Of a stretch of DNA of 64,000 nt, positions 6,713-56,199 are shown one piece after another. The stretch is from Lepisosteus oculatus (lineage: Eukaryota > Chordata > Actinopteri > Semionotiformes > Lepisosteidae), in the NCBI RefSeq assembly GCF_040954835.1, contig NC_090703.1, forward strand, positions 8,489,001 to 8,553,000. Reading direction: 5' to 3'. Every line of letters starts with the position of its first letter. Within the stretch, counting starts at the first letter, position 1. A program made the translations under genes and the position numbers. A model generated the notes under the pieces. It saw nothing but the letters and a program-made list of their open reading frames with translations, did not search any database and was not told where the DNA came from.

Positions 6713-7716
6713 ATATGCATCATTACAAAATTGAGTCTTTCGAGATATTTCTCAATACGTTTATGTCCGAAACGTCAAAAACTGTTCAAATATGTTATAT
6801 TATGAATTTTATTTTGGTAAGGTAAACCGTACATAAGAAATGGATACCGATAATTAAAAAAAAACCCTGAGACTCGAAATTTGTATTTCTTGCGGTAGGG
6901 GCAGCAAAGAGCTGAACACAAACGCTCGGGCCCGGATGCGGATGTGAAGACATACAAACAATACCACGCAGGATGGATTAGGATTGCTCTTGCTCTGTGA
7001 ATGTTAGAAATTAGAGTGAAATTAGAGATGGCCTGCATTTCACTGTCCACGAATGCTGCTTTTAATTCGCGCATCACCATAGTAACCGGAAGCCATGGAA
7101 ACGGACACTTTGGAAGGACATTCAGCTAGAAAAAAGTCAGTGTAAATTATTTTTTTAAATATGAAGAAGAACAAAGTTGAAATACGGTCTTGTCGATGTC
7201 ACGGCTGAATGTCGTTTCCCCTAAGATAATTATAGCACCGTTTTTCTTCCCCCTCTTTCAAAAGTAGAGTAGTAGTTTTGAATGGTTGGATAATAGGTTT
7301 TAGCGTGCGTTTTGTCCAGCACCGTAGTGCGTAGTTTTGTTTATCAAACTCGTCAGAATGTTATTTTTTAACTTTTTTTTTAAACCGTCATTGTTAAAAG
7401 AATAGTTCCCAACATGATAAGAGGGTTGAAGCTGTCAGTCTGCGATTGTTCCCGGCGGCAGCCGGGAATCTCAAATTATAGTAGATGGCGACAGTAGAAA
7501 CTGTTATGAAACGGCACCCTTGATGTAGAATGTAAAATTTATTAGACCGGGAGTTAAGTAAAATGTGTTGGAAGTATTTATTTGCAGAAAAGTCCCATTA
7601 GGACGGAGCTCCGAATTCCTCTTAAATGTGCAGAAATGTCTGACGGGCCTAGGAGCGCTTGCTGAGATAATTTTTACAGCAAAGAGGCGGTTTAGGTTTC
7701 CGATAGCGTCAGAACT
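6713..7716 (+). promoter_or_regulatory. Upstream region of MLH3
   Basis: No coding sequence is recognised between the ACYP1 poly(A) signal and the MLH3 ATG. An RFX X-box-like 14-mer, ATCACCATAGTAAC, at 7073-7086 departs from the GTNRCC-NN-RGYAAC consensus only at its first base. It sits in the GC-richer part (about 6890-7110) that is the likeliest MLH3 promoter. There is no clear TATA box. The MLH3 5' untranslated exon cannot be delimited. Confidence 0.35.
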
Positions 7717-16260: not shown

Positions 16261-20385
<4,125 letters not shown>

Positions 20386-33260: not shown

Positions 33261-34030
33261 TCTTTGCAGACTACGCACGCTGACGCAGCTGCCCACTTAA
33301 AGTAGTAATATCAGCCAAAGACGTATACCAGCCCAATGTAATTGTTTTTTTAACTCCAGTACTACATGCATGGTAAAGGACAACACCCTTGCCAGTCAAT
33401 GTTGATATTCAATGTGTGTTAATGTTCCAAACTGGTGAGTGCGAGTTCAAATTGTCGCAGAGGTACAGTACCAGCGTTACAAGTAGAGGCTTAGGAACTG
33501 AAATACAGTAGTTTGGAGACAAGGTCCATGAGCCTTAATGGACCCTGATCATTGTAAACCTGCTCATTGTAAACACTTGAAAGAAACACATTTTTATCTT
33601 GTCATTCTGAATTTAACTGAAAATTAGAAATGTCAATTATGTCATCTGTAAGGAGCTTTTTACATCTGTGAAAATTTTTACCTAGCAGTCTAAACATCCT
33701 GTATTGCCTTTGTGAATGATGCAATATTGGAAAGTTACCAATATGATTTAGGAATGTTTGCCCATTAATAAGACTGAGTGCAGATAATGTTAACAGTTAA
33801 GCAATGCTGCTGTGTGTATGTTCTCTCTCATTGATTATTTTACACTTAGAACCCTTAATATGATAAATAAAATATGATTTAAAGAAATTGATTTCTCTTT
33901 TGTCAACATATCATATGTTTATAATATGTTGCTTTTGCTTAAGTCAGTTTTAAATACTGACAGTACACATCAGAAAATATGAAAATAATACAAAGGTGTA
34001 AACATCGATATTGACAAAGTTTCTAGATTA

Positions 34031-34074
34031 TATGTAATGTGTCACTTTCTGATATGTAATGTGTCACTTTCTGA
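34031..34074. repeat. Two exact 22-base tandem copies
   Basis: TATGTAATGTGTCACTTTCT followed by GA occurs twice without a gap (34031-34052 and 34053-34074), identical over all 22 bases, which suggests a recent duplication. Confidence 0.9.
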
Positions 34075-34837
34075 TATTACATCTACAACAAATGCAGCAG
34101 ATGCTGAAGTTAATACAGTGGTCTATCTGATGACCCATACTAGGCAGTAATAGAGGTTAGGAAGAAAAAAAACATAAACTCATTTACAAGCTCCTGTGAA
34201 CAGGTTGCTAATAGCTAATTAATTGATCTGAGAATGTCATCCGGCCATTTCTGGAAATAAGCTGTTTTAAGCAAATGTTTTCATCTTTTTCACACAAGGT
34301 GCAGTTCATTAAGTGTGTAAGCTTTGTTTTCATCTCCAGCAGCCTAACACACGTCTCAAAATAAGTGGATAACAGGCCATCTCATTGAGCACTCGAACAC
34401 ATCTTCTCTGGGCTTAAATACATGAAAGAGCTAGGAATAAATGTCACGGGGTAGTAAAAAAAATATTTTTAAATGAGAAAATACATTAGCAGGTGAGAAC
34501 ATTCAGATTTCGTGAATGAATAAGCATATATTATCTACACACAATGGACCAGAGGGTGATACTTTTCAGCCTGTCTCAGATATTCCAAACCAACGACCCA
34601 GTTAGGAAAACGGGTACACCATCCTGTAGGGGGCGCCCTCCTGCAGGTGGCAAATTTAACTAGGGATGTCAAATCCCTGTTTTTCTATCTAGGTTTTCTA
34701 GAGCTCTTTACAGCCCCAGCCATTGAAGTTATTAAACTTGACAGACTAAGCCAATAATGTTAGGTTGCCATATGAGAACATTAAAAAAATGACACTTCGT
34801 TGAAAGGGGAGTCATTAGAACAGATCAATTTTCGAAT

Positions 34838-34880
34838 CGCTTTACCCAGTACAGGGTCACAGGGGAGCCAGGGATTTGTA
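34838..34880. repeat. Fragment of the same fish repeat family as 13255-13402
   Basis: The run 'gctttacccagtacagggtc' then 'acaggggagccag' matches the part that normally precedes the 'agcctatccca' module in this family. Only this piece remains. Confidence 0.45.
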
Positions 34881-36324
34881 TCAATATCTATTGAACAGTG
34901 CTGTGTTTGTGAGATATAATTCGCCATTATGTATATATACAGTAGGTTGCATATATGTATGTAATATGTAACAATATATTACAGAGACATACAGGTACCT
35001 GTAAGTACCTCTTCTTGGTCTACATACAAGCACTCAGCTTCCCGTTCTTCTGTAAGATTTGCTCTTAGCCTTTCTGAATCTTGTTTAGAAACAGCAAAAT
35101 AAAGTATTAAATAAAGATCTCCTATAGAAACGCTACTGTGCGCAGGACGGGATCGGGTAAGCGGACAGTGAAATTAGCGCCGTGGTCGAGCCGGGGGTAG
35201 AGGCTGTGGAAAACCTGTACCTGTTTAGACAATTCAACGGGGCAGCAGACTGGACCGGTCCAGCACTATCATCAACACAGTCTCTCTCTCTCTCTGGGAT
35301 GGTCAGCTCTCTCTCTCTCTTAATCACCCGTGCGCTTAGCGTTCGAACAAGAGAAAAAGGAAGAATCGTCATTAATATCATTGAAAATTCCTCCCGGACG
35401 CAGAATTACGAACCAAAAAGGAGGACATGTCCGGGACAATACGGTATAATGGTGGGGCTGCGTTAGGTTGTGAAGAGCTCGCTGGGACTGAAAACCTGCA
35501 GACACACCGGCCCTCCAGCGACAAGCCTGGAAAACCGTCTGATTTCTTGGTTGTTGAAACATGCTGTTGACACTTCAGCAGAGTAGGAGTGTTTGGCAGT
35601 GAATTATCCTGGTGTCCTGGATAAACTCCAGTCCGAATTTGTAGAGTGTGACTTCCCTTCCCTCCGAATTCATGTGGTGTTTCCTGACTTCTGCACCTCA
35701 AGTTGAGATCGGGGGAGGAAAGTGCTCCCTCCTACACGCAAGATAGTGCATAATCCATGGTGATAACAAGTGCTATAATAAATGCAATTAGTTATTATAG
35801 AAATATGTATTTTGCTTATTAGACATAGTCTTTAATTTCGGTACTTTTTTTTCTAAATTTACTGAGCGCTAATTCGCTCAGTAAATAATTATAAATGCGC
35901 GGGGGCACACGTCATTCACCAGTAAGTTCAATTAACGTACTACACCGACTGCGCAACAAAACCCCGAATATTCACTTAGAATCCACAATGCGATAAATAA
36001 AATATGATCGAAAGGTTCTCAAAATACCCGCATCTAGTGCATTAGCTCTCCCTTGGTATGATAGAAACAACTCTTTAAGTTGTGCTCACAGCACAAAGCA
36101 TATTGCTTTAAGTTCCATAAATATCCACAGTGCCGATCTGTGGTTTCTGAGCGTTGAGTTAGGACAGTCAGCATCATGATTGTTTTGCATATATTTCATA
36201 TCATTTGCAGGCGTATCATTTCTGAAAAGAGCACATTAACATTAAAATGACAGCTGATGCTTACAACAAACCAGGGAAAGTGAGGCCGTGCATTTTAATT
36301 GTGGAAATATCATAATACCCAAAT

Positions 36325-37560
36325 GTAACTCTTTCATATTGTAGAGATCTGCTCCTCTCTGACATGGTGTTTTTCTGTAACCCTACCCCTTTACCCTCTG
36401 GCTCCCCCTTTCCCGCCTATAGAAGGACTGAGAGACCCTCTCTTCCCGCCTGGAATCTTTCAGGAGCAGCATCTCTGCTTTTCCTACCCCCCCCACATGA
36501 GAGTAGCACTCTCGCTGGAAACAGAAAGGGCAATAAAGCTTCCTCACGACCCCGAACACCAGCTTCCTTCCTTCCACTCGCTGCCCAAGCACACCCAACA
36601 TCACACTGGTGTCAGAGTGGGGTAACCTTCACCTGGCGTGGAACCCGGCACCGAAGAAAGGGTGGATTCATCCGTGGTGAGGAAGCACCTGGAGGAGACG
36701 GCAGATCTTCAATAGCAGGTATGGTGGAGCGCTCAAGGCTGTGCTCAGAGCTGTGTAGGAAAGAACCAGCCAAGGACCTGTCACCCAGCCAAGGTGAGCA
36801 TCCTGGGACTCTTCTCCTGTAGTTCCTCTGCTGGGTGCCGCAAGCGCCCCATTGACACCGGTGATGCCCACCCCATCGGGCACCAGCCCCACTGCCTGTG
36901 GGCACAGTGAAGACAGGCTGCCCAGAGGGCCCTAGAGGAGATACTGCACACAGGGATAATGAACCCTGGAGTATGATAATGAATAATGAATTGTCATGCT
37001 GCCCAAGAAGGACAGAACCTGGAGGTTCTGTGTTGACTACCAGCACCTGAATGCTGTAATGTAGAAAGACTCCTACCTCGTACACCAGAGGTCGTCCCTC
37101 GACCCGAAGAGCTGGTATTGGCACATGCAGCTGGCACCAGGCTCCCACTCCTAGGCAGCCTTCTCCACAGGGAATGGGCTGTGGCAGTTTAAGGTAATGC
37201 CCCAGCCCCCTTGGAGAGGCTGAGTGTCTGGGCATGCCAGAGATTCGGCCCATGCCCCTGCACCCCCACTGCAACAGACTCCAGGGACAGCTGGGCACAC
37301 AGCACAGCTTGGTCCTTGGTCCTTGGTCTCTGCACAGCACTCAGAAGACTGGGATCTGCAACTGCCCCTTCTGCTCCACACCTGCAGCTCAGTGGTCCAG
37401 TAGTCCAAACCCACCTCCCTTAAGCTCGGTTAGGAGCTCCAGCAGAGGGGGACGTCGTTAGCCCCTGGAACAAGGCCCCGCTGAGGAAGAGCTGGGCTAC
37501 ACCGCACAGCTAAGAGAGCGCATGGAGACAGTCAGCTGGTTCCCAGTGGGCAACATGTCA
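36325..37560 (+). mobile_element. Old Ty3/Gypsy-type LTR retrotransposon fossil, truncated
   Basis: A 5' LTR-like segment lies at about 36325-36606, with a poly(A)-type signal near its middle. It is followed at 36607 by TGGTGTCAGAGTGGGG, which sits where a primer-binding site would be. Further on, reverse-transcriptase wording of the Gypsy family can be seen (RFCVDYQHLNAV near 37015-37055). The element is clearly broken and much reduced: most of pol is absent and no matching 3' LTR is seen. Several breaks and large losses point to an old insertion. The ends are approximate. Confidence 0.6.
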
Positions 37561-39320
37561 GAACCAAGGGTGAGGAACTGCCCTTCAAGTAATCTTTGGG
37601 TTTCTTGAACCTTCAAAACTGTAATCTGCGATTCAATGTTCAGGATTCAGAGGCACTCGGTGTGGGTCCAACATAATTCAAACATAATGTTCACACATGA
37701 CTGACACGTAAGTCAAATAAAGTCTCATTTCTAAGGGCTGTTTTTATGCCTTATTGAGTCTTGAAGTGCTATACAAAAACATGTATAATAAAAAATAAAT
37801 ATCTGTTAAAATAAAACAAAAAGATACAAGAGGTGGTACCTAGAAAAAAAGTTACCTGTTGTTTTCAACCTGTCGTATGGTAGAAATTTAGATCCAGTGG
37901 AGTAAGGCTATATAAACCTTTTTAAGTTAAAAATATAATAATTTTAAATCCACTGTAAATTTTACAGATAACCACTGGAGTGATGGCAAAAGTCACAAGT
38001 GATCCTCCGTTATGTCCGTTATGTTTTAAATGCTGACCAGCAAAGCTTTTACAATAATCGATTCTAGAGAAAGAATATTCAAGCTTCTTAACATCAGACA
38101 CCAACAAACATGGACATGGTTCGAAACCAAAACCCAAATGAAAATGAGATTTTAATGGCAGAAACGCCAGAATCCGAGATTTAGGCTTTAAAATTGTTGA
38201 GAAAATTGTTTAAAATGTTGAGAAAATTAAATATATATACGACAAAAAAAAAACCACAACAACTTTCCAACCAAATAAATACATGGAATTAAATTTTCCG
38301 TGTTCTACCGAAGAAAAAGAAATGGGAGGAGCAGAGGTATATTACAATACTTAGAAACACTGCATGAAGTATAGCCTTCCTTCAAAGAGCTGCCGGTAAA
38401 AAGCGCGTTTCTTTCGGTAGGAAAGACTAGTTCTATAAACTTTTAAAGACGGTTGACACAACAGCATGGAAAGATCCACGAGTCGTCAATAGTGAGGATG
38501 AGATGTCATACCCAGCGTTCTGTATGCAAATATTTGCACAAGGCCCGCTTGTTCCATTGCATTGAGTCGCATTCAGAAGAGCTGTTACAGATCATTCGGC
38601 TCGTACTGTACATATATTTTCGGTTTCCATAATGATGGCGTGCCGATGGAATGCTCTTTTGAAATAACATATTTCTTTCCTTGTATAAACGTGCTATTGA
38701 AATTGCACATATATGTATTTTAAAATGTATAGCTTGTTTGCCATCCCTTTTATTTTCTTCTTGCTACTAAACATCCACCAAGAAGCTGCGCCCCGTTGCT
38801 GAAAATAGTATTCATCCTATCCCAATTCTGTAAAATCATAGAATATACAATCTGTTTGAACTTCTTTGATATGTGCTAGCTGGGGGGCATTTAAGGACAG
38901 AGGAACCCCTCATCATAACTTGAGCAGTATCAGCAAAACCTTTTGTTTTTTTAAATCGGTTTATTTCTTGTGTTGGGAAACATTTAAAACCTACTGCACT
39001 GTCAATGAAAATGCACTCACTTTTCATGACGATGACAGATTTGCTGGGGATATTTTGTCAGGACTTCACGAAATGTTTAATAGTTCTTTGGTCATACCAA
39101 CAAATACGGAGACTTACACATGGAAATAATTCATGCAACTTACTGAAAGGTTCATTTTAAAATAATGTAGTAAGAAGAATAACAATTCGCGCTTGCTATA
39201 AAAGATAGGTGATAACATCTCCGTTTCTCCACCCTTGCTATCGCGCCCGCGTGTTTCGCGCGAGACGTTGACCATCTTCTCACAGTTATATCCTGTAGCA
39301 ACTGATGAAAACACTTTTCT
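37561..39320. other. Intergenic, AT-rich, no gene recognised
   Basis: No exon, RNA gene or clear repeat is supported in this 1.7 kb. The GC content rises only near the right end, where the enhancer candidate begins. Confidence 0.3.
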
Positions 39321-39526
39321 AGTCACCATGGAAACGGCGCAACTGGTTGGCCAGACGCAACTGAGAGCCGTCCTTCCGTACTCTTGCGTCTCGAGTTTCC
39401 AGAATTTTCCAACACGGTAGAAGTTAACTGGTTTTCTCTATATTTGGGCACGGAAGTGAGACGTCATGGCGTTCGCATATCAGGGGTTGAGAAAAAATGG
39501 TAACACGCATTGACGTTTGTGCTCTG
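39321..39526 (-). promoter_or_regulatory. Candidate activity-responsive enhancer downstream of the minus-strand FOS (mirror copy of 52065-52272)
   Basis: Read on the minus strand (the FOS sense), five blocks occur in order. (1) 39526-39506: CAGAGCACAAACGTCAATGCG core, a CRE half-site. (2) 39464-39445: ACGTCTCACTTCCGTGCCCA, a CRE half and an Ets site, leading into CCAAATATAG, a CArG box with one mismatch. (3) 39404-39397: TTCTGGAA. (4) 39377-39363: GGAAGGACGGCTCTC. (5) 39335-39321: GTTTCCATGGTGACT, an RFX-like palindrome. The same blocks occur in the same order beyond the plus-strand FOS. The element lies 1.2 kb past the FOS stop and about 0.6 kb past its poly(A) signal. The region is locally CpG-rich. 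Enhancer function is inferred; CRE plus SRF/TCF sites are typical of FOS control. Confidence 0.6.
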
Positions 39527-40127
39527 ACGTTTTAGGACAGCCATAGAAACGGAACAGTAAACAGCAGTAGCTGTAGGGTATTCTGGAGAATGTAATGGAT
39601 GAATGATTAGGCTTTCTTGTCTATAAGGGTGTTGATAAGGTGAAGATTAGAGAAATGACCTTTATTTGTAAATCTATAATAGTTATTCAATTGCGGTCTT
39701 GAGATTTTTTTGTGTTTGAAAAGGATATCGATGGTACGACTCCTAGAGCAAAGTATGGCATTTGAGTCAGAGAGGCACAACAAACTTCTTTTATCCCCAA
39801 AACGTTTGTTTAGCGTGAAGAGATTGTCGTGTAAGGATGGGACGCATTTGGATTTTGCAACTTTTCAAAAAAAGCATCGACTCACGTGTGATGCACCTTC
39901 TACAAACAAACGCGTTTTTTTTTGTCTACTCGATTTTTAAGCTTCGTTTTGGAGAGAAACAAAAAAAAACGAGACCGCCATCGTAAAATAACCAGGAAAA
40001 ATATAAAAGCTATAGTCATTATCCCTCTCTCATTTTAGAATCCAAACCGTTTCATAACGTGCAAGTGTTACACTATGACCAGACATTAAAAACCCAGCGA
40101 AGACCAAAATAAAACACCGTTATAATC

Positions 40128-40133
40128 TTTATT
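40128..40133 (-). terminator. fos: Poly(A) signal AATAAA, minus-strand FOS
   Basis: TTTATT on the plus strand reads AATAAA on the minus strand, 573 bases past the stop. The 3' untranslated region between them is AT-rich and has AU-rich element cores. The clearest is TGTTTATTTATG at 40260-40249 (minus), as expected for an unstable immediate-early mRNA. Confidence 0.7.
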
Positions 40134-40705
40134 GTCTGTTACAAGAACCAAACAAGCTTGGATTGTTCATTTAGTTTGACGAACATTGTATAACTTCTAA
40201 AGTAGAAAAATAAAACTAAAATATAAATATCAGAAAAAAGTTAGTTTTCATAAATAAACAATAAAAACGTTTTCACAGAAAACTTTCAAACTCAGATTTT
40301 GACCACCCAGACCATGGTTTGTTTTGACAAAGCACAGCATTTATAAGTATCACAGACACAGAATAGTGTACAGTACATACTCCATAAACAAAACAAAAAG
40401 GTTACCAGTATTTATTGGGTTATCACTATTGCCATTAACACTTCAAAGTCAGCTGCACTAACACAACTTCAAATATCTAGCACCAAGAAGATTTAAAGTC
40501 TAAATTTGTAATACTACAAACAATTGACAGAATTGGTAGAATCTGTAATTCTTTTTTTTTTTTTTGCTACATACTTGGAAGAGGCAAGTATGGGTTTTTT
40601 TTTTTTACGCTTAAAGGATAAAAATAAAAGCCTTTTAGGTTTGTCCATGCCATAGCCCTAAGATGATTTAACCTGCATTAGACAAGAAAGTGCTCTGGAA
40701 GTCCA

Positions 40706-42842
<2,137 letters not shown>

Positions 42843-43046
42843 CGTGGTCGGAATCTAAAAGCAAGCCCGCTTTCAAGATTGCCGAGAAAACAGGAATGTT
42901 TGAAGAAATGTAAATGTTAAGGCTGTTCTTTCTTTAGAATGTTTCCGTGTTGGCTGTCGTCTCACGCCCCCTTAGTTTTCTGGTGCTCTCCGACGCGTTG
43001 CGACTCCCAGCTCGAAGTGTATGACAGCGGTAACAGCCAGCAGCTC

Positions 43047-43053
43047 TTTTATA
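43047..43053 (-). promoter_or_regulatory. fos: TATA box of the minus-strand FOS
   Basis: TATAAAA (minus strand) lies 205 bases upstream of the ATG, within GAACTATAAAAGAGCTG. It predicts a start near 43020 and a 5' untranslated region of about 175 bases. Confidence 0.8.
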
Positions 43054-43100
43054 GTTCGCTCGCGAAAAAAAAAAAACAGGGGATCCCCATACGTAATTAT

Positions 43101-43146
43101 CCTTATATGGAATGCATCCTGTCAGGGGGCGGGTCAGTTATGGGAA
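43101..43146 (-). promoter_or_regulatory. fos: SIE-TCF-CArG (serum response) module of the minus-strand FOS promoter
   Basis: Read on the minus strand: TTCCCATAA (43146-43138, STAT/SIE type), 19 bases from the end of its TTCCC to ACAGGATG (43122-43115, the TCF/Ets site), then CCATATAAGG (43110-43101, a perfect CArG box). Order and spacing match the mammalian c-fos promoter. The CArG box ends 48 bases upstream of the TATA box, closer than in mammals. A CCAAT box (minus strand, 43200-43195) lies further upstream. Confidence 0.88.
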
Positions 43147-43200
43147 TCATACCCTGCCTCAGAGACTGGGCTGCAGACTGATATGATTGGCTGAAACGGG

Positions 43201-46200
43201 GAAGGCGTAATAACTGCAAAATTAAATCGAAGGGGGGAAGATAGAGCAACTGCCCCTGAGAATATGCTCCAAAGCTGATCGCTATTAACAAAAGATATTT
43301 TTAAATACGTATACACAAGAGGCCTCGGTATATGAAAACAGGGGCACAGTTCAGAAATTACATAAGTACAGAATAAAACCCTACTCGTTATTTGAGGTAT
43401 GTTAAAACTGATATGCAGCTGATTCTTCAAGACAAAATTTAACATTGTTCTGCACCGTTTCTAACCGAAATAGACGTTTTTAAAACTAAAAGGTATCATA
43501 CACGTTGAAAAGACCCGCCACAGTTATTTCGTGTTCAAATATTTAGATTATATCAATATACAGTACAGTATACATTTTTGAATTAGATGTTTATTTGAAG
43601 GAACTGATTTTTTTTGTAAAGCGTGTGAAAGGTCTTCAGTAACCTAATTGTTAATATTATCCGTATGTTTTTTTTTTCACGTAAGAGTCATAAAGGAAAT
43701 GAATATCTTTCCATATGATCTTAAAAGCTCGTGTTTTATAAAAATGTTGACCACGGTAATTTGGTACTTTGGATAACAGTAAAACTGGAATTGCTTGGCT
43801 ATGATTCAGTAAAAAGAACCCCGCTTTTATCACGTTCAGCTCAGAAACTACACTTCCTTCTGCAGGCTGTGCATTCTGACTCGTCTCTTCACCGCGTTGT
43901 CTAGGAGTGAAGTCTCTGGGAAACAGGCCTGGAAGCCAATTCTTTCACCCGGCGGGTTTGTATATTTGCGAACCCATGTTTCATCATAGCATAGCACTCT
44001 GTTACAGCAGCTGACAAGAGTAAACCAGTTGAGTCTTCATGCAAAAGAGAAGCAGGTGTGCAGTCCTAAGGCTGTCCCTGTACCTAGGCAAGTGGGTGTG
44101 TCCGTCAGCTAAAAGCAAACCTGTTGCAAACCAGTCTAAACTTGCCGATGTCAGTCTTCCCCCCTTTGGTTATGTCTTTCTTTTGTTTTCGTGAGGTGTT
44201 TACGCAGAAATATTCTATCACTGCTTATGACGGAATCACAGTATAGGACATTTGACCTACATTAGCTGGAAGGCATGAGTTTCTTTCAACAGCTTGACAT
44301 TAGACACGGTTTTTGTATTTAGTATATAAAACCTGAAATTAGGAGCACTGTTTACATATGGAATGTGACAGTAGGTATCTCAGACTCAATTCATGGATGA
44401 CCTGCTGTCTTCTAGGTTTTCTTCCAATCTAACTTAAATAATTGGCGATTGTTTTCTTAGCCCCTCATACACAGTGTTTCTAAAGCGCTTTTACTGTTGA
44501 TTACTCAAAACATTCCCTTCGTTAAGGCAATATTGCCTATAAAACACGTTTGTTTAGAGGTATCACAAATATGCAGTTTAAAAAGGCAAGAAGTGGACCA
44601 GTTATGTAACCCAGAGCTCGAATGGATGAGCAGCAGAAGACAATAGACCGGAACTGTCAAATCTTTCGTACACGTCGACCCTCGATGTCTGGGCCTCAGA
44701 CTCCTGCGTTGCATTATAATCAACGACAGAAAGCGAGATAGTGTTGAGGTGTTTTTCTTATTCACTGTTTACGGGGTTTTGAATGAATTGAAGAGTGGAA
44801 TTCCTTCAAAACCGGGGAGAAATTTTAAACGTCCGTCTTCCATTCCACGACCAACTATTCGCATTTTTGTTTTAGCGTAAGCATCCTTTTCTTTTTTGTT
44901 TATTGTTTTATTTGGCCGTTATTTCAAGTCAAACAAGCGGCAGTGTTTTCTTTTATTTGTTGCCTGGGTTAAATCTGTCTTCTCAGCGGTTCCCAGGGGT
45001 GGTGTTTCATACTTGGATAGCGCTGCGCTTGGTATTGCCTCGTCTGTGTTTAGCCCAAACGCTGCGGGTTGCCACGGTAACGCCCCACCCCCTTCGCATC
45101 AATGACGTTTCAGTAACCAGGCTCTGCGACGGAACGTAAACAGCGTGAAGAGGCGCAAGAGCCGAAAGCATGAAGTACAGAACTAATATTTTTTTCCCCT
45201 TTTTCATTTTTTCCCCCCCCTAAAAACACGATAGTAAATAAACTCTACAGAATCGGGAGCCTTTGTCCGCCTTTGGAGATTGCTGTAGCACAGCGTTTTA
45301 CATACTTTTACGGCTTAATAAACTCAAGTGTTGCTCTGAACTTCCATATGGCACAGTTTCATTTCAGCTCGGGGTTCCTAATATGTAAGCAAAAAAAAAA
45401 GCCACTTCATGAGGATGGTTATCTGTTTTTCATTAGAATATTATTAATCATTCATGTTTCACAAACGTGCATAACCTGCAAAGAATAGAGAATCAGGAGG
45501 AAAAGCCCACAAAGAGCAGACGATGTTCCGAGGTGCTCATTCCTAAACTTCATTTTAGTTTTGTCAATATAGGAAAATGTAGATAAATGAGAGCTGAGAA
45601 ATAAAAAAATGATGCATGCACAATATTTTGGAATGATGGTTATTGTAAATGTCATTATGTCCCGCTATGATTCCTTACATCGAATAGGAAAAAATACATT
45701 AACATTTCCTTTCAGAATAACAATAAGAAGCTGCTTATTCTGAGTTACGTCCCACATGGAAATGTACAGTCTTTCGCAGCAGGACAACTGTTACCATGCT
45801 ATTATTATGAAGCAAAAGGAGGTCATTATAAAAACTGGATAATTATGCGCGTTACATACATCAAAGAATACGTACGTATATCTAAACAAGTATTTAAACA
45901 CACGCATCTTATTGGCCCGTGTACTTCATATGTCCCGTTCCCCAGGGTGCGTTTCCGGGATCCGCACAACATACGATCGTTTATCGCAACCTGTCGTCTA
46001 TAATCTTTATGGGACATAACAATCTATATCAATAAACGGGACACGTGTGCAGAGACGGGAGGCATTCCTCTCCAGCGCGAGCCGTCCCGTGCTGGAATTC
46101 CGTTCCCTGACCCGGAACGTCATTGCCGAGAAGTCCTCGAGCAAACATGATTATTTTCGCCTGTTCTGTAAACAAGAGGCAGATCCACCAAGAAAGCAGC

Positions 46201-46686
46201 AAACACACTGAAAATAACTTTCCTCTAACCCACGGCCGTCCCCTCCCACCCGTGATCAAGATAATGTGACACTAAAAATAACGTTGTCTGATGAGATTGT
46301 TTAAGAAATGTAAAGACATTTTTTTTAATTCGTATAATCCTTATGTAAAAGATCGATAACATTTTTTAAAAAAAGAAAATGTTGGTTGTCTATCTTAGAG
46401 CTCATTAAATATTTTGAAACTCTTGTGCCACTGTGTTTGACATCTTAGAAACCGGAGGGACGAACGATTAATACGTGCACTGTAGCATGAAACGACTACA
46501 AAAAAAGGCTTTCTCCGGCATTGTCTGGGGGCTCTTTGATATGACAGTGAAATCAATGGACTCATGTGATGATGGTTTCATACACAGGTCATACTGAATT
46601 AAATAACAGGGGTTGCAGTTTGCAGTCGAATGACCTTTGTACTACAAAAAGATCAAACACGTTCCTCTGACCGCTAGCTAATGCAA
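43201..46686. other. Intergenic space between the two head-to-head FOS genes
   Basis: No exon is recognised. At 45068-45081 there is a perfect RFX X-box, GTTGCCACGGTAAC, with a CRE-like TGACGTTT at about 45103-45110. A GC-richer block at 45900-46260 may be conserved non-coding DNA but has no motif I can name. The rest is AT-rich. Confidence 0.4.
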
Positions 46687-46731
46687 TTCCCGGCAACTCC
46701 AAGCCATGTGAACAGGATGTGCCATATATGG
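46687..46731 (+). promoter_or_regulatory. SIE-TCF-CArG (serum response) module upstream of the plus-strand FOS
   Basis: TTCCCGGCAA (46687-46696) is followed, 20 bases after its TTCCC, by ACAGGATG (46712-46719) and then CCATATATGG (46722-46731), a perfect CArG box. Order and spacing match human c-fos (SIE, then ACAGGATG, then CArG), in the plus-strand orientation. A CCAAT box (CTGATTGGCT, about 46749-46758) lies just downstream. The module is unusually far, 1.05 kb, from the TATA box at 47785. A nearer TATA-like run, TATTTATAG, lies at about 46965-46973. Confidence 0.85.
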
Positions 46732-47784
46732 TGCGGAGTGTCTGCCTTCTGATTGGCTGGGTGGTCAGCGCTATGTAAATTGCTGTGGCTCCATTCTTTG
46801 CACCCTGCTAGAGTTAATTGTGCCGGACGATTATCTCACGCATGAACTAAGATAATGGGACGGGAGGCATAAAGACAGTTGTTCCCAAAATCTGACTTCA
46901 AATGACCGTAATGAGGGGGTGTTTAAAAAAAAAAACACCATTCCCGCGGGGCGCCTCCGTAATGTATTTATAGAACATCCCATATTCGTTACCCAACATG
47001 CAATATTGGGGGAAAAATCATCGGAATTGTACTAATATCACCCAAATGTGTTAATGTAATAAAATGTAATGAATGCAAAAATAATCATTTATGTAAGTGC
47101 TCAGAAGCGCTTAAGAATAAAGGCTATAACATAAACTCAGACCATTTTAAATGACTACTGCAGGATCATGAAGACATTGAAATGTCAAGTGGCTAGACTA
47201 CGTTTTTCTCCTCTGTAACACCTGAGATATACCCACGCAGGGGTAAAGAGAGATAGATAAATGACATTTTTTTCTTTTTTCCCCCCACCGTTTTGATATT
47301 TCTCTTATTCGGGCGGTCAGTCATGACGTGCTTTGTAACTCAATGTCATTGATAAACGCCGAGTTTAACAGTTGCACAAGGTTCGATGATTTGTATGCGA
47401 CAATTTCGCATGCGCGTGTTTTTATTTAAAAAATTAACGTTCAACAGAAGAGATGCGAGAGATGGTTTATAACGTTTGTGTTATTGCCGTGCGTGGGTGT
47501 CATATCTGTAAATACAGTATTCTTAAGACTGACATGGCTCACGTGACAATCCCCAACACTATTCTTTTTCAAGAGGGGGAATCCCGCAATTATAAATTAC
47601 AGATAGTTTTGCCATTTAAGATGAAATGAAAACATACGTACTAGAATGTTTTGATCGATTGCACACTTTCCCTATGTATACATGTCCATCAGATAAGGGT
47701 TTGCTTTATCGGAGCTACCACACCCCCGGACTGTGAATGGTACAGTCTTACCGCACAGATTTCATTCATAAAATTCTGGCACAG
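46732..47784 (+). promoter_or_regulatory. Extended upstream region of the plus-strand FOS
   Basis: Motifs seen by eye are an E-box CACGTG (47540-47545), an NF-kB-type GGGGAATCCC (47576-47585) and a near-CArG CCATTTAAGA (47612-47621, one base off). A TGACGTG CRE-like site lies near 47324. None is proven. No coding exon is seen. Confidence 0.4.
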
Positions 47785-47791
47785 TATAAAA
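47785..47791 (+). promoter_or_regulatory. TATA box of the plus-strand FOS
   Basis: TATAAAA within CACAGTATAAAAGGAGGAGC, 179 bases before the last T of the run preceding the ATG at 47970. It predicts a start near 47815 and a 5' untranslated region of about 155 bases, like that of the other copy. Confidence 0.75.
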
Positions 47792-47969
47792 GGAGGAGCT
47801 AGCAAACTAATCCAGCAGTTACGGGGTTTGTAAACCGGCAGAAGGAATAGGAAGAATTATACGTGGACGGACTCTTCGCCGAATAGCAAAATCCACCTGA
47901 AGGAATTCTGGCTTACAGTTATTTTTTTTTTTTTGAAACGCCAGACGCTTGTTGCAATTGTGTACTGAC

Positions 47970-50315
47970 ATGTTTCCCAACTTTTCTGCCACCGACTACG
48001 ATTCTTCCTCTCGCTGCAGTACGGCTTCTCCCGGCGGGGAGACCCCAGCTTACTTCCAGCCGTCTCCCGCCGGCTCCTTCTCGAGCGCTTCGGCGTCTCC
48101 GATGAACAACCGACAGGTAAATACCAGCACTTCTTAAAATGACCTGCATAGCGTAAACATGTTCTGTACTGTACATGCAGCTGCCCAATTCGCACCTTGA
48201 GCAATGCAACACTGAGTTTTCAATGCTTCTTGCTTCCGTGGGGATTCATATGTATACCTTTTTATGCATATTTAAAGGACAAGACATGACATCGGTACGT
48301 AACATTTGAAGAATGGTATGCTTGCAGAAAAAAAACCCATTAAATATTCCCTTTATTGTTGAAATAGTTTATTTCACACACTGTATCAAGGGGTCGCGGT
48401 AATAAGAAAATAAGTATTTGAGAAAGGCACACACAAAACCAAAGTTTCAGTCTGCAGCTATGAATAATAAAAAAGAACAAGAGAATAGCTATTTTTACTC
48501 TTGTGATCTCGACAGGGAGAGTGTGCGTGTTTGTACAGCAGTTCATTGATGAAAAATCATTCAGGAGACTCCTCGGCTATCTTGCGTCATTACAGACGTC
48601 AGCAGCATTTATATTCCCCAATATTGAGAGGGAAAGAGGGCTAAATGCGGATTTAGTATTTATAAAATGCTATTCACAGAATGTAAAAGTAATTTTGCAT
48701 TAACATTAATGCCATAACGTCCAACATTTCAACGGTGATGGAAGATCAGACACGCACAACTATTCCACTTTGGTCTTAGTATTTTAAAGTTAAAATGCCC
48801 ATAGAGGGCTTCCTTGTAAAATGCAACCTTATTTATTTGCAGGAGTTTTGCACAGAAATGGATGCGTCTGCCTTTCCTTTTGTCCCTACTGTAACTGCAA
48901 TTTCAACGACCCCAGATCTCCAGTGGATGGTTCAACCAGCCGTGATTACATCCATTTCTCCTTCTCAGGCTAGGACTCACCCCTACAAAGCACGGAATTC
49001 TGTCCAGACTACTCCCAGATCCACTGGGAACAGAGGACAAACCAATGGCAGAAAAGGAAAATCTGAGCAGGTGATTGTCCTTTTTTATAGTTAAACATTA
49101 TAAATCATTTATTGTTTTCTAAAAAAAATCTGGATGTGCATATCTTATTTTAACAAAAAAAAAAGCCTGTTTGGTTTCCCATTAGTGCAGCATCTCAGTA
49201 CATGCGCTAAACAGCCTGGTATTGGCTGTATGCCTTGCTGAGGTACCCAATTTAAATTCAGGTCATGAAGAGTCTGCAACAATGCTCTATTTTTAGAAGC
49301 ACTGCAGCGAAAGACCGATTTGCTGCTCTCCTAAGAGAATGAATTGATAAGGGAAGGAAAGGATTAATAAGTGAATTTATAAAAGTTTTTGTTTTTAATT
49401 CATCATTTTGTATTTCCGTCAAACAGCTTTCCCCAGAAGAGGAAGAGAAAAAAAGGATCAGGAGGGAGAGGAATAAAATGGCTGCAGCAAAGTGCCGTAA
49501 CAGGAGGAGAGAACTCACGGACACCCTGCAAGCTGTAAGTACGGATTTATCACCTTCTAAAAGAAACTGGCATTTAAGATTCCTAAGATGTGCATGTGTA
49601 AAAGAGACCAAGCATGTTCACATTTTAATGTTTTATGTTTCCGTAGGAAACAGACAAACTGGAAGATGACAAGGCAGCTCTCCAAACCGAAATTGCCAAT
49701 CTTCTGAAAGAGAAGGAAAAGCTGGAGCTCATCCTTGCTGCACATAAACCAGTTTGCAAAATCTCAGAAGATCTAGACACTATCTTCCACGAGCCTATGG
49801 GCTCCCCTCAACTCGTCACAAATATGGAGACTTCCAAAGTCCAGGAAGAAAATGCGGGAGAAGCTTCCACACTGCAGGACCTGGAGATTCCCAGCCTTCC
49901 TAATGCAGTCATTTCAGGGAATTCGAACATCTTGCTGTGTTCCAGTGCTGAAGTAAATGTTTGCGATTTGGAGCCTTCTTTAGATCTAAAAGAAGAGCCC
50001 CTTGAAGATCTCCTTCCCGCCATGGAGAAAAACTCCACAGAGACTGCCAGATCTGTTCCAGACATAGACTTGACCAACTCCTTTGGAATAACAGACTGGG
50101 AAACCCTTTATAAATCAGTTTCAAATGACCTCGAGCCCCTCAGCACTCCTATAGTGACTTCCACCCCAACGTGTGCCAGTTACTTATCTGCTTTTGCATT
50201 TACCTACCCAGAGTTTGATTCTTTTGCTGACAGTGGAGAAAATCACAAAGGTGGAATAGGCAAGACTGATTCTGCATTAGATATTCTCAATTCTCCGACC
50301 CTTTTAGCCTTGTAA
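47970..50315 (+). CDS. FOS-like transcription factor, plus-strand paralogue of the head-to-head pair
   Basis: The four exons are 47970-48116, 48843-49070, 49427-49534 and 49647-50315. All junctions are phase 0 and give 383 residues, with the same exon plan as the neighbouring FOS. It begins [20 protein letters not shown] and has [20 protein letters not shown] in exon 2. The 36-residue exon 3 with the basic region differs from the other copy at only two residues. The five-leucine zipper is intact. The C-terminal half is more diverged but keeps [28 protein letters not shown] and the exact end SPTLLAL. It retains [12 protein letters not shown], resembling human LKTEPFDDFL, a psi-K-x-E sumoylation-type site that the other copy has changed. 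Splice sites and frame are all sound, so it is not a retrocopy or pseudogene. AP-1 partner and DNA target should be as for FOS. It is either an ancient or a lineage-specific inverted duplicate of FOS. I do not know an established symbol. Confidence 0.95.
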
Positions 50316-52064
50316 TGCATAGAGATTACTAATTGGACAACATAATGACCACTTTCTACTGGATCTGATATTGGCAATGATCTAGATCCAGTGGTTACAT
50401 CCATAAAATGTTTACTGTGATCAAACCAGTATTACTTCTTCCAGAAACACTATGTAGCTTAAAGCATGGGTAGTCATGTTAATGACTGAGATTTTAATTA
50501 TGGTCTGGTATTAATAGCATGCTGAGCAGTACCATTTATTTTAATGAATTGAAAATAGCATTATCTGTTTCCCTGGTGCTAGATTAAACAATGTATTGTG
50601 GAGCTATTGACAGTTTGAGTGCCGTTTTGTGTTTTAATAGCAATAGTATGTTACTGTCTAAAAATAACGTAGTTTAGATATATACGTGACGTACTGTACT
50701 GGCATACCTCAATCTCCATTGTTCTGCCTGTGATTGACATTGTTTTAAAGTGGTTTACTGTATTTAATTAGTTTTCCATGAAAACATCTACTGTGCTATT
50801 ATTTATCAAGATGTATTTTATGATATAGTTTATTTTTCTACCTTCAGAGTTTTGACTTGTTTGTCAAGTATAAAATCATAAGCATTGATTGCTTATTGAA
50901 ACAATATGTTCATTAAATATATTTGAATTGATGCCTTGTGCCTTGTGTTTTTTTAACACTCACTTACTTCAAAGAAAATCACTACTGTTGCCCTTTCATT
51001 GCCTTATACTTTCAACATAATTGTTCCTTTTCAAAACTATTCTTAAATGTCATAAAAACCAAGTACAACATGTATTGTACACCCATATCCAGGAGTATAT
51101 CCACTAAATCCACTAGCAAACATTTCAATATCATATTCACTGTGACTCCATTCTGAATGTATTGGATTGAAAGATAATGTTCCATTTGTAACTATAAAGC
51201 ATGCCCAGTTTCAAACCCTGCCTTTCAAAAAAATAATAAAGTTGAATACAGCTGCCACTCTCTAAGTGCAGGTGTACGGAATGTTAACAATGTGTCTGTT
51301 GTGCTAACATGACAGACATGCCCAGACATAGCTTTACTTAATAGCATAGCTGTCATAACATTGCATCATTTATTTCTTTTACATGTTATCTATAGTGGCA
51401 AAGGTCAGTTGTTGAGGTTTTATATTAGTGCATAATATAGGTATTTCTGTCTTATTTCCGTCTTGGGTATTTAGTTTTTAAAGAACATACTGGCTTCTCA
51501 CTGAAACAGTTGCACTTGCTTTAACTGTCGTACTCATGCATGACTGCAGTAAACACAGCAAACAGTTTACAAATCTGTGGATTAGATTTTTAAAAAGATC
51601 TTCTATGGACTTGACCACTAATCCTAAACTCTGACATTATACATAAGACTCTCAAACAAGACAATTAACATTCGAACAAACAGAATACCACTACTTTTAC
51701 ACTTCACATTTATACTCAGGGCGATTGTACTCTTGAGTGTTACAAAAGTAATGCAGCACAATCTCAAGAAGGGAAATTATCATAATATAAAATGTCTTGC
51801 ATTTTTCAGAAAAAAATCAATTGAATCCCGCTTTTATCTTTTCATATAGCAAGCGGTTCATTGTACACCTTCGTAATATGTACATACATTAGATACATGA
51901 ACTTTCCCAGAACATACACGTTCTCAGTGAAGCGCACAGACATTTAATATTTTCGTGAAGTATTTGTGGCTTTTGTTTAGTTTTTGTTTTCCACAACAAA
52001 ACCTACCCTTTTATCTCTAGATGTCGCGCAGCTTTGCTTGTTTAGTTTCCAAGCACGTAGCGTG
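50316..52064 (+). other. 3' untranslated region of the plus-strand FOS and following spacer
   Basis: It is AT-rich with several ATTTA cores (for example TATTATTTATC at about 50798-50808) that fit an unstable immediate-early mRNA. A poly(A) signal lies at 50912-50917 and a second AATAAA near 51235. From 51250 to 52064 nothing is recognised. Confidence 0.5.
50912..50917 (+). terminator. Poly(A) signal ATTAAA, plus-strand FOS
   Basis: ATTAAA is followed about 25 bases on by a G/T-rich run, TTGTGCCTTGTGTTTTTTT, a good downstream element. It would make a 3' untranslated region of about 620 bases, close to the 573 of the other copy. Confidence 0.65.
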
Positions 52065-52272
52065 CAGAGCATGACGTCACGGCGTATTTGCTGTCTTGGT
52101 GCGGCATGGCACGTAATTACGTCTTACTTCCGTGCCCATATTTGGAAAGTTCTTGGCTTCTTGTCGTGGGCTGCGCTGCGCGCTTCTGTTCCTGGATTGT
52201 TCTGGAATCCTGGGAAGGCCGATCCTCCGGGAAACTGAGCTCTTGAATAGCTGTTTTGTCTCCATGGAGACT
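52065..52272 (+). promoter_or_regulatory. Candidate activity-responsive enhancer downstream of the plus-strand FOS (mirror copy of 39321-39526)
   Basis: Five blocks in the FOS sense: (1) 52065-52084, CAGAGCATGACGTCACGGCG, containing the full CRE TGACGTCA (52072-52079). (2) 52119-52138, ACGTCTTACTTCCGTGCCCA, a CRE half and Ets site running into CCATATTTGG (52136-52145), a perfect CArG box. (3) 52200-52207, TTCTGGAA. (4) 52213-52227, GGAAGGCCGATCCTC. (5) 52258-52272, GTCTCCATGGAGACT, whose first 14 bases are a perfect palindrome. Block 2 differs from its counterpart near the other FOS at one of 20 bases. A STAT/SIE-type TTCCCGGAA follows at 52319-52327. CRE with SRF/TCF sites is the classic input set for immediate-early genes. 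The enhancer role is inferred. Confidence 0.65.
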
Positions 52273-52327
52273 CTCTGGATTGGAGTTCTCGTTTGCTGGC
52301 ATGTAGGGATGGGATGTTTTCCCGGAA

Positions 52328-54711
52328 ACAGTATAGGAAAGCTGGGATCGTTGTTCTTGTTTTACGGGAAGCAAATGATTTAAAAAGACTCTTAAAATGG
52401 AATCACAATATTTACCGGTCTCCAGCCGAGTTAAAAGTATCACAAATGTTTTAGTGAATAAAATAAATAAGCACAAAGTTTGCCTATAGAATGGAGTACA
52501 AGTAACTTTGAGTTTGCAGACCACGGCATCTTGCTAGTAGCTAATTTTAGAACTGTAATGTTTAAATAGCTGAATATCCTCAGTAAATGTTAGTTTTAAT
52601 TATTTCTTAAATTCCCTTGTGATTCATGTTTCTCTAGTGAGTAAAAGAATAACTGCATAGATACAGCGGAGGACATTGTATATACACACTGACTTTTAAT
52701 TTCTTAGTGAACAAAGAAACATGTTTGCGTTTTGTACGCTGTGGAGCCATGTATTAATGTGTGGTTATCACATTTTATAAACATAGCTAAACGTTTTCCC
52801 GGCTCACCTCTGAACTGGGAAGCCTTCGGTGTGGAGTTCGTTGTCTTGGTTCTTATGTGCGGGCAAAACACAAAGCTGGAACAAGTCTCCCTGGATAATG
52901 TAAACCCCATGTAGACTAGCACAAAGGGCTATAAACGTATAGTCCTGGCGAAGTGCGAGATACTGTAAGTGTACAGAACGGTACTCCAGTTTTCCGTTTC
53001 CCATATCATTCCAAACAGGAACGATATGTGCTGAGACAACTAGCGCTACCCAAGAGATCATAGAAGCTGAAAACATTCAAGTGGACTTGGATGTGCATAG
53101 TTGTGTATGTTACCGCCAGCAAAGGCATGTTCAAAAAATGAGACATCATAATGACAGATCATAACTGTACGCGATACAGTGGTCAGCAGGGCTCGTACCT
53201 TTAGTGATGTCTCATTTAATTGCCTCTGGCTTTAGGTTCTCAGATTTCTGTCAAAATTCTCATATTTCTTCAAACTAAGGGTAAATAATCAAGCTGAGGT
53301 AAAAATATAGAAGGTTCTGTTCCTGTGAAATATAAAACAGTAGGACCATCACAATTTATATTTTTAGAGTTAGCTAAAGGTTTCTAGGACTCCTGAATGT
53401 TGCATGGGTATGAACTGATTAATAAAACATACTTTTCATGAAAAGAAATATTAATACAAACATCATGAAAAATGCACTTAAATGAAAATATGGCACAATT
53501 ATTAAGCAAGAATGATATTTCTAATTTAAATTGAGGTTTGGAGGTTTGAGTTAATATTAAGGCCTAAACCTTAACAGAAATATGCATATTGTTATTTTAA
53601 AAATGTCCTCGCATAGAATATGCATAATTTTCTTAGAATGACTGAAAATGATACTAAATCTCAGCATTGGGGTTTTTGAAATTGTAGTCATCAATATTGA
53701 AGTAGGCTTTTGCTGGGGAGCACCTTTTGGAAAGTTTTCAACTCAAAGCTTGAACAAAAAAGCATTTTACAGCATTAACAATACACATAGTTAAATGTAC
53801 CGAAAGAAAAAAAAAACTTCCAGAAGATTTGATTCTGCAGAGTGCTCAAGCTGGGTTCAGTGCAGGAGAGCAGGGCAGTGGTGGAGCTTTGTGGGCACTT
53901 CAGAATAGCAGATGTGGGCAGTAAGTGAACTTCGAATCGAAAATATGTGTTCCAACCCATTTTTATGGGACATATACTATCACTGCAGCTGTCAGAATTT
54001 ACTGTTGAGTTGTAGATATCTATAAATACCCATTGCACTGAAAGAGCGGACTTCTGCTCAACTATTAATACACACTTTCAATTTATTATCTCATTACACA
54101 TGCATTTGTAACCTCACCAATTTCCACTTAGGGTGGAAAATTCTGAATCGTATTCATCATACTCTTTATCATTAAGTTATTTGTTTCTTTTTGCAGGAAA
54201 ATTTGATGTGCATTGTTTTTTTTTTTCCTGGATACTCTCCTTTTCCAGCATATGATCTCCTGGTCTCAGTGTCAAGCAGTGTCAATCCTACTTACAGTTT
54301 CCAAGGGATGATTGGAAGTCTTCTTAGAGATCCTAGATCCACTCGTTAGAACTTGAAACACACCACTGAACCCGAATAAAACTCGGCAGGCTGTACATTG
54401 CAGCTTCAGCATGGATCTTAAAAAATACAAAGGCTGTGGCAGTGGATGCTTCTCCACAATGGATGATGGTTAAGCACAGCTAATCTACATCATCTTGACT
54501 GTTTCTGATAAATTTGTACTGGTTTTCATTTGTCTTTGCCTGAGAGTGTGTACCACTACCTAGACACATGTTAAAGATGATCTCGTCGCTGCAAAGTGTT
54601 CTTCTACCATGCCTGCATCCCCGATGGGGCGGAATTGGCGCTCCTCGTCTCCGCCAGTTTCGAAAATCTCCTTCTAAATGGGGGAATGTGGATAAGGTGG
54701 CTGCTGATAAT
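52328..54711. other. Spacer, AT-rich, no gene recognised
   Basis: No coding exon, RNA gene or named repeat can be supported here. Confidence 0.3.
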
Positions 54712-54902
54712 TTAGTGCTGTGGTGCCGTCTGTTTGTTTTGAGGTTTCCCTGAGAGTGACCCGCTGAGCGGGCCGGATGACAGCCAGCTCTGCTGGTGGA
54801 ATGCGGGGAGGCAGCCAAGGGACGGAGGTGTCAGATCCCAGAGAGGCTCCCCCTCCCCAGGCTCAGGAACGTTTGCATAGATTACATCATTCCTCAGGTC
54901 AC
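54712..54902 (-). CDS. Possible terminal exon with an ITIM-like tyrosine motif (unrecognised gene)
   Basis: Minus strand: acceptor TTTTCCTGCAG, then an open 63-codon stretch beginning GDLRNDVIYANVPEPGEGEP and ending at a stop at 54712. VIYANV fits the (I/V)xYxx(V/L) cytoplasmic tyrosine motif of inhibitory immune receptors. A possible preceding mini-exon of 37 bases at 55295-55259 (acceptor ACAG, donor GTAAGG) would join in phase to read RPHATDRKQWLEG. Short cytoplasmic exons are usual in such receptors. No Ig domain or clear membrane exon is seen to the right, so this may be chance or a relic. Confidence 0.25.
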
Positions 54903-56002
54903 CTGCAGGAAAAGAACAAATTAAACAGAAGCCCCATGAACAACTAACATCTCCAGACACTACGTCAGGTCCTATCTTATGCCAGGAAGATTTACACTGT
55001 TCAGAACTTTACATACAGTATGTGCATGTACAGTAGAAGTGAGAATGTGCCTGTAGTATGCGTGTGTCAGGTAAGACTAATTGCTTGGTTAATTAATTTC
55101 AAATTTACGCACATCACAAGTTTTCCAGAGTTTCTCATTTATTCCTCATGCGGTGTATTAAACAGATGGCCAGGCTATGTCATAAGATCTGAGTGATGAT
55201 TGATGACTTCTTAATCAGAGAGGAAAAACACGAAGACAAGCTCCTGTGAGCGCCTTACCTTCCAGCCACTGTTTCCTGTCTGTAGCATGCGGTCTCTGTC
55301 ATTTTAAAACGCCTTCATACTCTTGATGAGTGCAGTCCTGGGCCTCTCTGGGGTTATTAAGACACAGGACTTCTCTTGTCAATGTTGGTGCTGAACTTTC
55401 TGGTTTTGCACTGGAAGGTGCTTTGTGGAGTTTTTCATTTCTGTTTAACGACTAAATGAAAAAGAAAGAAAAGAAGAATATTCTCACAAAATGTGATTAC
55501 AGAAACAGGTGGTATCAAAGGCTTGTGAGGTTTTAATTATCATTAAGCAACTACTATATGTCTGCAAAATCAATTTTTCAATGAATGCAGACAACTTTTC
55601 AGTTTTTCCATTAGTGGCAGATTCTTACCTATTCACCCACCTTCAGCAAGGCTAAGGTATAAATGGACACATGAACAGCGTCACACAATGACACTCTTTT
55701 TCTAGAGCCTGAGCTCTGCACTGTGCACTGAGCTAGATCTGTGGAATTTTATCATAATGATTTCTTGGATGCCACTGTTGAACCTGGTTTTCGTCATGTG
55801 TTTTTGACAACTTAATACTGGGAGTGTGCTTGTTTTTTTTCCCAATTTTTGTCTCTTTTTTCGTCTTTCCTGGCAGAGACGCAGTAAATCTAAGAACTAA
55901 TATTATTGTAAGGAAACAAAAAAGCAAACATCAATAAAACCCTTTATTTCAAGTCTTTCACAGTATATCATTTGCAGTACTGGTACTGGAATTTTGCTCA
56001 CT
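54903..56002. other. Spacer; no supported gene apart from the mini-exon candidate
   Basis: Apart from the 37-base exon candidate at 55259-55295, nothing recognisable is present. Confidence 0.25.
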
Positions 56003-56199
56003 CAGGGGTGTCCAGTCCTGTTTCTAGAGGAAATTGTTCCTAACGGTTTTCAAGGTCTCGTTACAGAAGGAGCACATGCAGAGCTGGGAGAAGCTGTTCA
56101 ACTGGACAGTTCAGACAGGAACTAGATGGTTTAGCTTGTTTGTTAAGTGGTGAGTTGGAATGAACACCTGACCCTCCAAGACCAGGATTAGACTCCCTG
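56003..56199. mobile_element. MITE-like element with imperfect terminal inverted repeats
   Basis: The left end CAGGGGTGTCCAGTCCTG and the right end, read in reverse, CAGGGAGTCTAATCCTGG are about 28-base imperfect inverted repeats around a 197-base unit. 'Caggggtgtccaatcctggt' is a wording I associate with very common fish non-autonomous elements. There is no clear target-site duplication, so the copy is old. Confidence 0.5.

Follow-up and report, generated by a model that had tools for sequence, protein, structure and literature searches.

Two FOS Genes and Their Neighbours

The analysed stretch of gar DNA (the window, 64,000 nucleotides) contains two FOS genes that lie head to head, each with four coding exons and an intact frame.

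40706..42842, minus strand: FOS minus copy; coding sequence 42842-42705, 42114-41872, 41588-41481, 41368-40706; 383 amino acids
47970..50315, plus strand: FOS plus copy; coding sequence 47970-48116, 48843-49070, 49427-49534, 49647-50315; 383 amino acids

A bZIP domain is present in both proteins, and the best solved-structure match of both was c-Fos, with scores of 107 and 102.7 bits against 91.5 and 87.5 bits for FosB, the bZIP chains compared differing slightly in length. The two proteins share 214 identical residues among 376 aligned. When set beside human FOS, the C-terminal residues of the minus copy look c-Fos-like and those of the plus copy look divergent. The dN between the copies was approximately 0.33-0.35 and the dS 1.6-2.2, and 37 of the 109 fourfold sites were equal. 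The silent sites are thus saturated, which makes the duplication an old one. Both proteins are under constraint.

A Pfam search was performed on 10 frames of the window, seven of which found a match and three of which were without one. The following neighbouring genes were recognised by Pfam.

1736-3271, minus strand: C2HC zinc-finger protein
7696-11034, plus strand: MutL-type protein
near 17.7-18.2 kb, minus strand: eIF2B-type exons
22.9-23.3 and 28.2-28.6 kb, minus strand: p24-family exons

The neighbours at 1736-28613 fit ZC2HC1C, MLH3, EIF2B2 and TMED10, which are the neighbours of FOS in human. Relative to the human order, the ZC2HC1C-MLH3-EIF2B2 block seems to be inverted, and the orientation of the plus FOS copy with respect to TMED10 is that of human. 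JDP2, expected near FOS from the same gene order, was sought in the window with a few bZIP-type words; there were six matches, five of them in the FOS genes and one, at 20292, not bZIP-like. A reverse-transcriptase-like open frame with a Pfam match to ALKBH8_N was observed at 61192-61815 (minus strand); from its translation, we take it to be probably a fragment of a fish-type LINE.

A Pair of Elements Downstream of FOS

One element lies downstream of each FOS gene, and both are in the same sense relative to their own gene. The original prediction had placed the two elements in this way, and their coordinates, sense and lengths all agreed with it.

39321..39526, minus strand: element A, approximately 1.2-1.4 kb downstream of the minus FOS stop codon; 206 bases
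52065..52272, plus strand: element B, approximately 1.75-1.96 kb downstream of the plus FOS stop codon; 208 bases
39437..39472, minus strand: core of A, with the CRE half-site TGACGT, the Ets site ACTTCCG and the near-CArG CCAAATATAG at 39438-39447
52111..52146, plus strand: core of B, with the CRE-like TTACGTC, the Ets site ACTTCCG and the perfect CArG CCATATTTGG at 52136-52145
39511..39516, plus strand: gene-side CRE half-site TGACGT of A; another at 39525-39530
52072..52079, plus strand: full palindromic CRE of B, TGACGTCA, the sole full CRE palindrome within 36-56 kb
39397..39404, minus strand: TTCTGGAA block of A; correspondence to B weak
52200..52207, plus strand: TTCTGGAA block of B
39372..39377, minus strand: GGAAGG block of A
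52213..52218, plus strand: GGAAGG block of B
39326..39331, minus strand: CCATGG in GTTTCCATGGTGAC, palindrome of A
52258..52271, plus strand: GTCTCCATGGAGAC of B, a 14-base perfect palindrome centred on CCATGG

A tblastx comparison returned six short matches, of 6-15 residues, the best of which covered 9 residues (E 0.008) and was interrupted by a stop. The conserved blocks are set apart by indels. Together these results indicate that the elements are non-coding. No Rfam family was detected in the window at the gathering threshold, and no tRNA. The possibility that A and B are coding sequence or an RNA gene was rejected on the tblastx, Rfam and tRNA results.

Element A holds 14 CpG dinucleotides (observed/expected 1.14) and element B holds 13 (0.92), against a ratio of 0.56 for the whole window. 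B sits in a CpG peak: the 400-base intervals starting at 51801 and 52001 hold 21 CpG apiece, those starting at 50201-51401 hold 0-4, and beyond the peak the count falls to 7-14, the pattern expected of DNA that has stayed unmethylated. A, unlike B, is located in a broadly CpG-rich stretch, so that CpG retention is less telling for this copy.

The Conserved Core

The 20-base cores start 1242 (A) and 1804 (B) bases after the stop codon. The longer core matches without gaps at 29 of 36 bases, including 19 of the 20 within ACGTCTYACTTCCGTGCCCA, and the 20-base pair ACGTCTCACTTCCGTGCCCA (A) and ACGTCTTACTTCCGTGCCCA (B) shows the single-base difference that had been predicted. The spacing of the CRE-like half, the Ets site and the CArG box is identical in the two elements, with ACTTCCG standing three bases before the CArG (B) or near-CArG (A), so that an Ets site is adjacent in both. 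Just two ACTTCCG sites occur within 36-56 kb, one per element, and three perfect CArG boxes, one of them in B. The motif labels given in the original prediction needed some revision. The near-CArG label holds for the minus copy, which departs from CC(A/T)6GG at one base, but the site in the plus copy fits the CArG consensus perfectly; conversely, the core CRE half is complete (TGACGT) in the minus copy but reads TTACGT in the plus copy.

The reverse complement of 39200-39600 was aligned with 51950-52400, the check proposed with the prediction, and scored 37; the best of 1000 dinucleotide shuffles reached 30, and of 960 other places drawn at random from the window, none reached 37. Gap-tolerant scoring of the same 400-base comparison gave 35, against a shuffle maximum of 32 (n = 1000), and no equal among 968 other places. 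When the search was widened to 3 kb by 3 kb, one of 200 shuffles equalled the core score.

A mirror blastn of 34000-45500, reversed, against 45501-58000 (11.5 by 12.5 kb) recovered the core at E 0.008 with the low-complexity filter. Five same-sense matches were obtained with this filter at E up to 0.5, comprising three coding matches, the core and one that was non-collinear (E 0.44). There were no opposite-sense matches at E up to 0.5, with or without the filter. The unfiltered search added a sixth match, a pair of 3'UTR stretches with E 6e-5, better than the core. These large-segment lists are not exhaustive, as they omit a pair of intron-1 elements that, searched by itself, scores slightly higher than the core (35.4 vs 34.0 bits). 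The notion of the core as the sole mirrored non-coding match was dropped, since the 3'UTR and intron-1 pairs score higher.

At a dS of 1.6-2.2, and with the fourfold sites equal at only 37 of 109, neutral sequence would be near random. Because the silent sites are saturated while the core keeps 29 of 36 bases, the likeness of the two cores is most likely due to selection and not to youth. A and B thus show the features of paralogous conserved non-coding elements, namely above-chance similarity, the same order and sense, and conservation beyond the neutral expectation.

The Outer Blocks

The ordered correspondence of five blocks between A and B is suggestive as judged from their sequence. With the core removed, the 200 bases on the gene side, which hold the CRE sites, were matched by local alignment in only 4 and 2 of 2000 shuffles under two scoring schemes (79 and 70 of 2000 by global alignment). 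The 200 bases on the far side, with the TTCTGGAA, GGAAGG and CCATGG blocks, gave 186 and 214 of 2000 by local and 32 and 31 of 2000 by global alignment; cut to 150 bases, the far side was equalled by 468 to 515 of 2000 shuffles, which is chance. Chains of exact words in the same order were reached in 14 (6-mers) and 55 (5-mers) of 1000 shuffles on the far side and in 71 (6-mers) and 122 (5-mers) of 1000 on the gene side, with word size and tolerance picked after the blocks were seen. An unconstrained MAFFT alignment pairs GGAAGG and CCATGG between A and B, but not TTCTGGAA. The predicted five-block collinearity is therefore real for the core and backed by local alignment on the gene side, while on the far side it is marginal. 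The TTCTGGAA block is HSF-type by its consensus, and the CCATGG palindromes of A and B resemble the consensus of the RFX X-box.

Mirrored Elements in Intron 1 and the 3'UTR

Two further mirrored non-coding pairs were identified, both of which the original prediction had missed.

42293..42339, minus strand: intron-1 conserved element of minus FOS, TCATTCAGGAGACTCC ... TGCGTCA
48557..48601, plus strand: intron-1 conserved element of plus FOS, TCATTCAGGAGACTCC ... TGCGTCA ... GACGTCA
40137..40295, minus strand: T-rich 3'UTR stretch of minus FOS, seen only without the low-complexity filter (E 6e-5)
50758..50903, plus strand: 3'UTR stretch of plus FOS, paired with that of the minus copy

The intron-1 elements are identical at 16 of 16 bases in TCATTCAGGAGACTCC, which is followed by TGCGTCA in both. 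The pair scored 38, a value reached in none of 200 shuffles of the introns, and the segment searched against the window gave E 8e-5. The copies differ in that GACGTCA is kept in the plus copy and reads GACATCA in the minus copy. Similarly, the 3'UTR pair scored 38, with none of 200 shuffles reaching it; this common T-rich stretch is possibly an mRNA-stability region.

Oligonucleotides from the mouse c-fos intron-1 CRE/TRE promoter are printed in the accessible part of PMC2888593, and those given there were compared with the window. For the trimmed 23-base TRE/CRE string, the plus site was the single best place in the window (18/23) and the minus site tied for second (16/23). For the full 29-base probe, the plus site (18/29) tied for first with an unrelated place and the minus site (17/29) tied with three; for the genotyping primer, the plus site (15/20) tied with one unrelated place and the minus site (14/20) with others. 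Singly these scores are weak, yet both intron-1 sites recur at the expected places, which points to the known promoter element as represented by these oligonucleotides. The mirrored copies thus seem, as far as the printed oligonucleotides allow the comparison, still to carry at least one FOS regulatory element that is already known, and such retention makes a second retained element, downstream, plausible. The intron-1 pair of the window resembles the oligonucleotides of the c-fos intron-1 CRE/TRE promoter (PMC2888593) and is a regulatory element retained by both copies. It is separate from A and B, neither of which was found to match the intron-1 segments.

The coding blocks, the intron-1 element, the 3'UTR stretch and the downstream core are all collinear in mirror orientation. 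Descent of the core from a common source through the inverted duplication of FOS is well supported by this arrangement. An inverted duplication carrying the downstream element had been predicted; mirror collinearity and the lack of wrong-strand matches bear it out for the core, but the accompanying claim, in which each of the five blocks is a conserved binding site, drew only partial support. The additional mirrored pairs strengthen the duplication reading and leave the odds of enhancer function unchanged.

Interpretation as Probable Duplicated Enhancers

FOS is the marker generally used for neuronal and serum stimulation, and most of the work on its enhancers was done in rodents. We consider it fairly probable that A and B both derive from a single cis-regulatory element downstream of an ancestral FOS gene, most probably an enhancer responsive to stimuli, that was copied along with the gene in the inverted duplication. 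Enhancer function of the two elements is likely in view of their motifs, CpG retention and position. Counting against it are the far-side blocks, which are barely above chance, the CArG of A, which is off consensus, and the core CRE half of B, which is degenerate.

How far the element extends is a separate matter. There is somewhat less than an even chance that homology is confined to the core of 20-36 bases, that the outer blocks are chance matches of short motifs and that the functional unit is no more than the CRE/Ets/CArG site. The far-side local alignments (186-491 of 2000 shuffles), the failure of MAFFT to pair TTCTGGAA and the in-order chains (14-122 of 1000 shuffles, with post hoc settings) speak for this shorter unit, but the 200-base flank on the gene side (4 and 2 of 2000 shuffles) and the 400-base gapped alignment, which beats 1000 of 1000 shuffles with the core included, speak for a longer one. 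As it concerns extent, this alternative is compatible with the duplicated-enhancer explanation. It seems to us unlikely that the elements instead act as a boundary, or as promoters from which non-coding or antisense transcripts start at the 3' end of each FOS gene, and hardly affect FOS itself. Such a role would suit the CpG ratios of 1.14 (A) and 0.92 (B) against 0.56 for the window, and CRE and Ets sites in CpG-rich sequence are typical of TATA-less promoters. However, serum-response elements typically have a CArG box next to an Ets site, both copies preserve the sense relative to their gene, and promoter activity would leave enhancer activity possible, as active enhancers make eRNA.

The likeness of A and B could also have a source other than common descent through the FOS duplication. 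Motif-rich regulatory DNA can converge, and the match is short (36 bases) and was equalled by one of 200 shuffles; two independent clusters of immediate-early sites, alike through convergence or chance, are nevertheless very improbable given the identical spacing of the CRE-like, Ets and CArG sites and their collinearity with the intron-1 pair, the 3'UTR and the exons. Insertion of a dispersed repeat or transposon on two occasions could find support in the LINE-type fragment at 61192-61815, but is the least probable account of all. The best non-self match of each element in the window was its partner (E 0.001), as the original prediction would have it, and for B the next match stood at E 0.19 and for A at 3.5, leaving no other match within 64 kb at E below 0.19; moreover, the two elements keep the same sense and a comparable place beside both genes.

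If A and B are duplicated enhancers, CREB/ATF would bind their CRE sites, and Ets TCF (Elk/Sap type) together with SRF would bind the ACTTCCG-TGC-CArG unit, which is full consensus in B and has one mismatch in A. The HSF- and RFX-type sites may act as helpers. Upon Ca2+/cAMP or ERK signalling, the bound factors would recruit CBP/p300, and this recruitment would boost immediate-early transcription from a promoter approximately 3.6-4.3 kb away (core to TATAAAAG). Since both its CRE and its CArG are full, B should respond more strongly to serum/Ca2+; in A the CREs are half-sites and the CArG is broken, so that this copy should be more dependent on CREB and Ets.

A locus with two ancient FOS copies acts as a natural replicate, in which the parts kept by both (the intron-1 CRE/TRE, the 3'UTR stretch and the downstream core) mark non-coding DNA that is hard to lose. 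The differences between the copies, an intact or broken CArG and CRE, predict measurable differences in inducibility.

Comparison with Known Fos Regulatory Elements

A and B share with the c-fos promoter SRE an Ets site beside a CArG box, and differ from it in lying downstream of the gene, in being combined with CRE sites and in the mismatched CArG of A. Their Ets site also has the opposite orientation to that of the SRE: on the gene strand it reads TTCC, where the SRE has GGAT.

For the mammalian (rodent) Fos gene, the accessible text of PMC3744447 reports five or more enhancers, spread from -40 to +15 kb around the TSS, a span so wide that distance does not single out A or B. CREB and SRF are reported in the same text as factors of neuronal Fos enhancers. 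Stimulus-responsive enhancers downstream of Fos are known in rat, where artificial activation of the downstream enhancer-3 raises Fos mRNA (PMC7515708, accessible part). In the same part of that report, and against a role of CREB, the RNA of enhancer-1 and enhancer-3 was not lowered by CREB inhibition. A and B resemble the activity-regulated rodent enhancers, as represented by rat enhancer-3 in the available text of PMC7515708, in being non-coding and downstream of FOS; they differ in lying within 2 kb of the stop codon, in being present in two copies and in being candidate elements known from sequence. They are a plausible new example of an already known kind of element, and not a new kind.

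Possible Relation to Fish fosab and fosaa

In the accessible text of PMC9456341, zebrafish fosab is described as closer to mammalian FOS and fosaa as more divergent. Two FOS paralogues occur in almost all fish and one in bichir, lungfish and coelacanth, and recombination errors or a large-scale or genome duplication are suggested as the source of the fish paralogues (PMC11808014, accessible text). The gar pair resembles zebrafish fosab/fosaa, as far as these two texts portray them (PMC9456341, PMC11808014), in comprising two c-Fos-type genes, one that seems nearer to mammalian FOS (minus copy) and one more divergent (plus copy); it differs in that the genes are here adjacent and head to head. 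We suggest only tentatively that the pair shows the arrangement in which fosab (minus) and fosaa (plus) originally stood, the two having been produced by an old local inverted duplication that included the intron-1 and downstream enhancers rather than by the teleost genome duplication, and that both downstream CRE-Ets-CArG enhancers have been kept since. If the minus copy is fosab and the plus copy fosaa, the two would be products of a local inverted duplication and not genome-duplication ohnologs. No description of a head-to-head FOS pair or of the downstream-enhancer sequence was found in the titles, abstract openings and open-access passages searched.

Upstream and Intergenic Sequence

A comparison of the 2.3 kb upstream of each FOS gene showed no similarity above chance, with 183 of 200 shuffles reaching the observed score, and hence much of the regulatory DNA has turned over. 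An SRE-like ACAGGATG with a CArG was found before each gene, at 43101-43122 (minus strand) and 46712-46731 (plus strand). The possibility that loss of its promoter SRE has left the plus copy dependent on the SRE downstream of the gene was rejected, given the SRE-like ACAGGATGTGCCATATATGG at 46712-46731. The latter site stands approximately 1.25 kb before the start codon and 1.05 kb before the TATAAAAG box (47785), which is far by comparison with the minus-copy site (43101-43122), approximately 50 bases from its own TATAAAAG. CpG-rich stretches, which are possible common enhancers, were noted at 44400-46550 between the two FOS genes.
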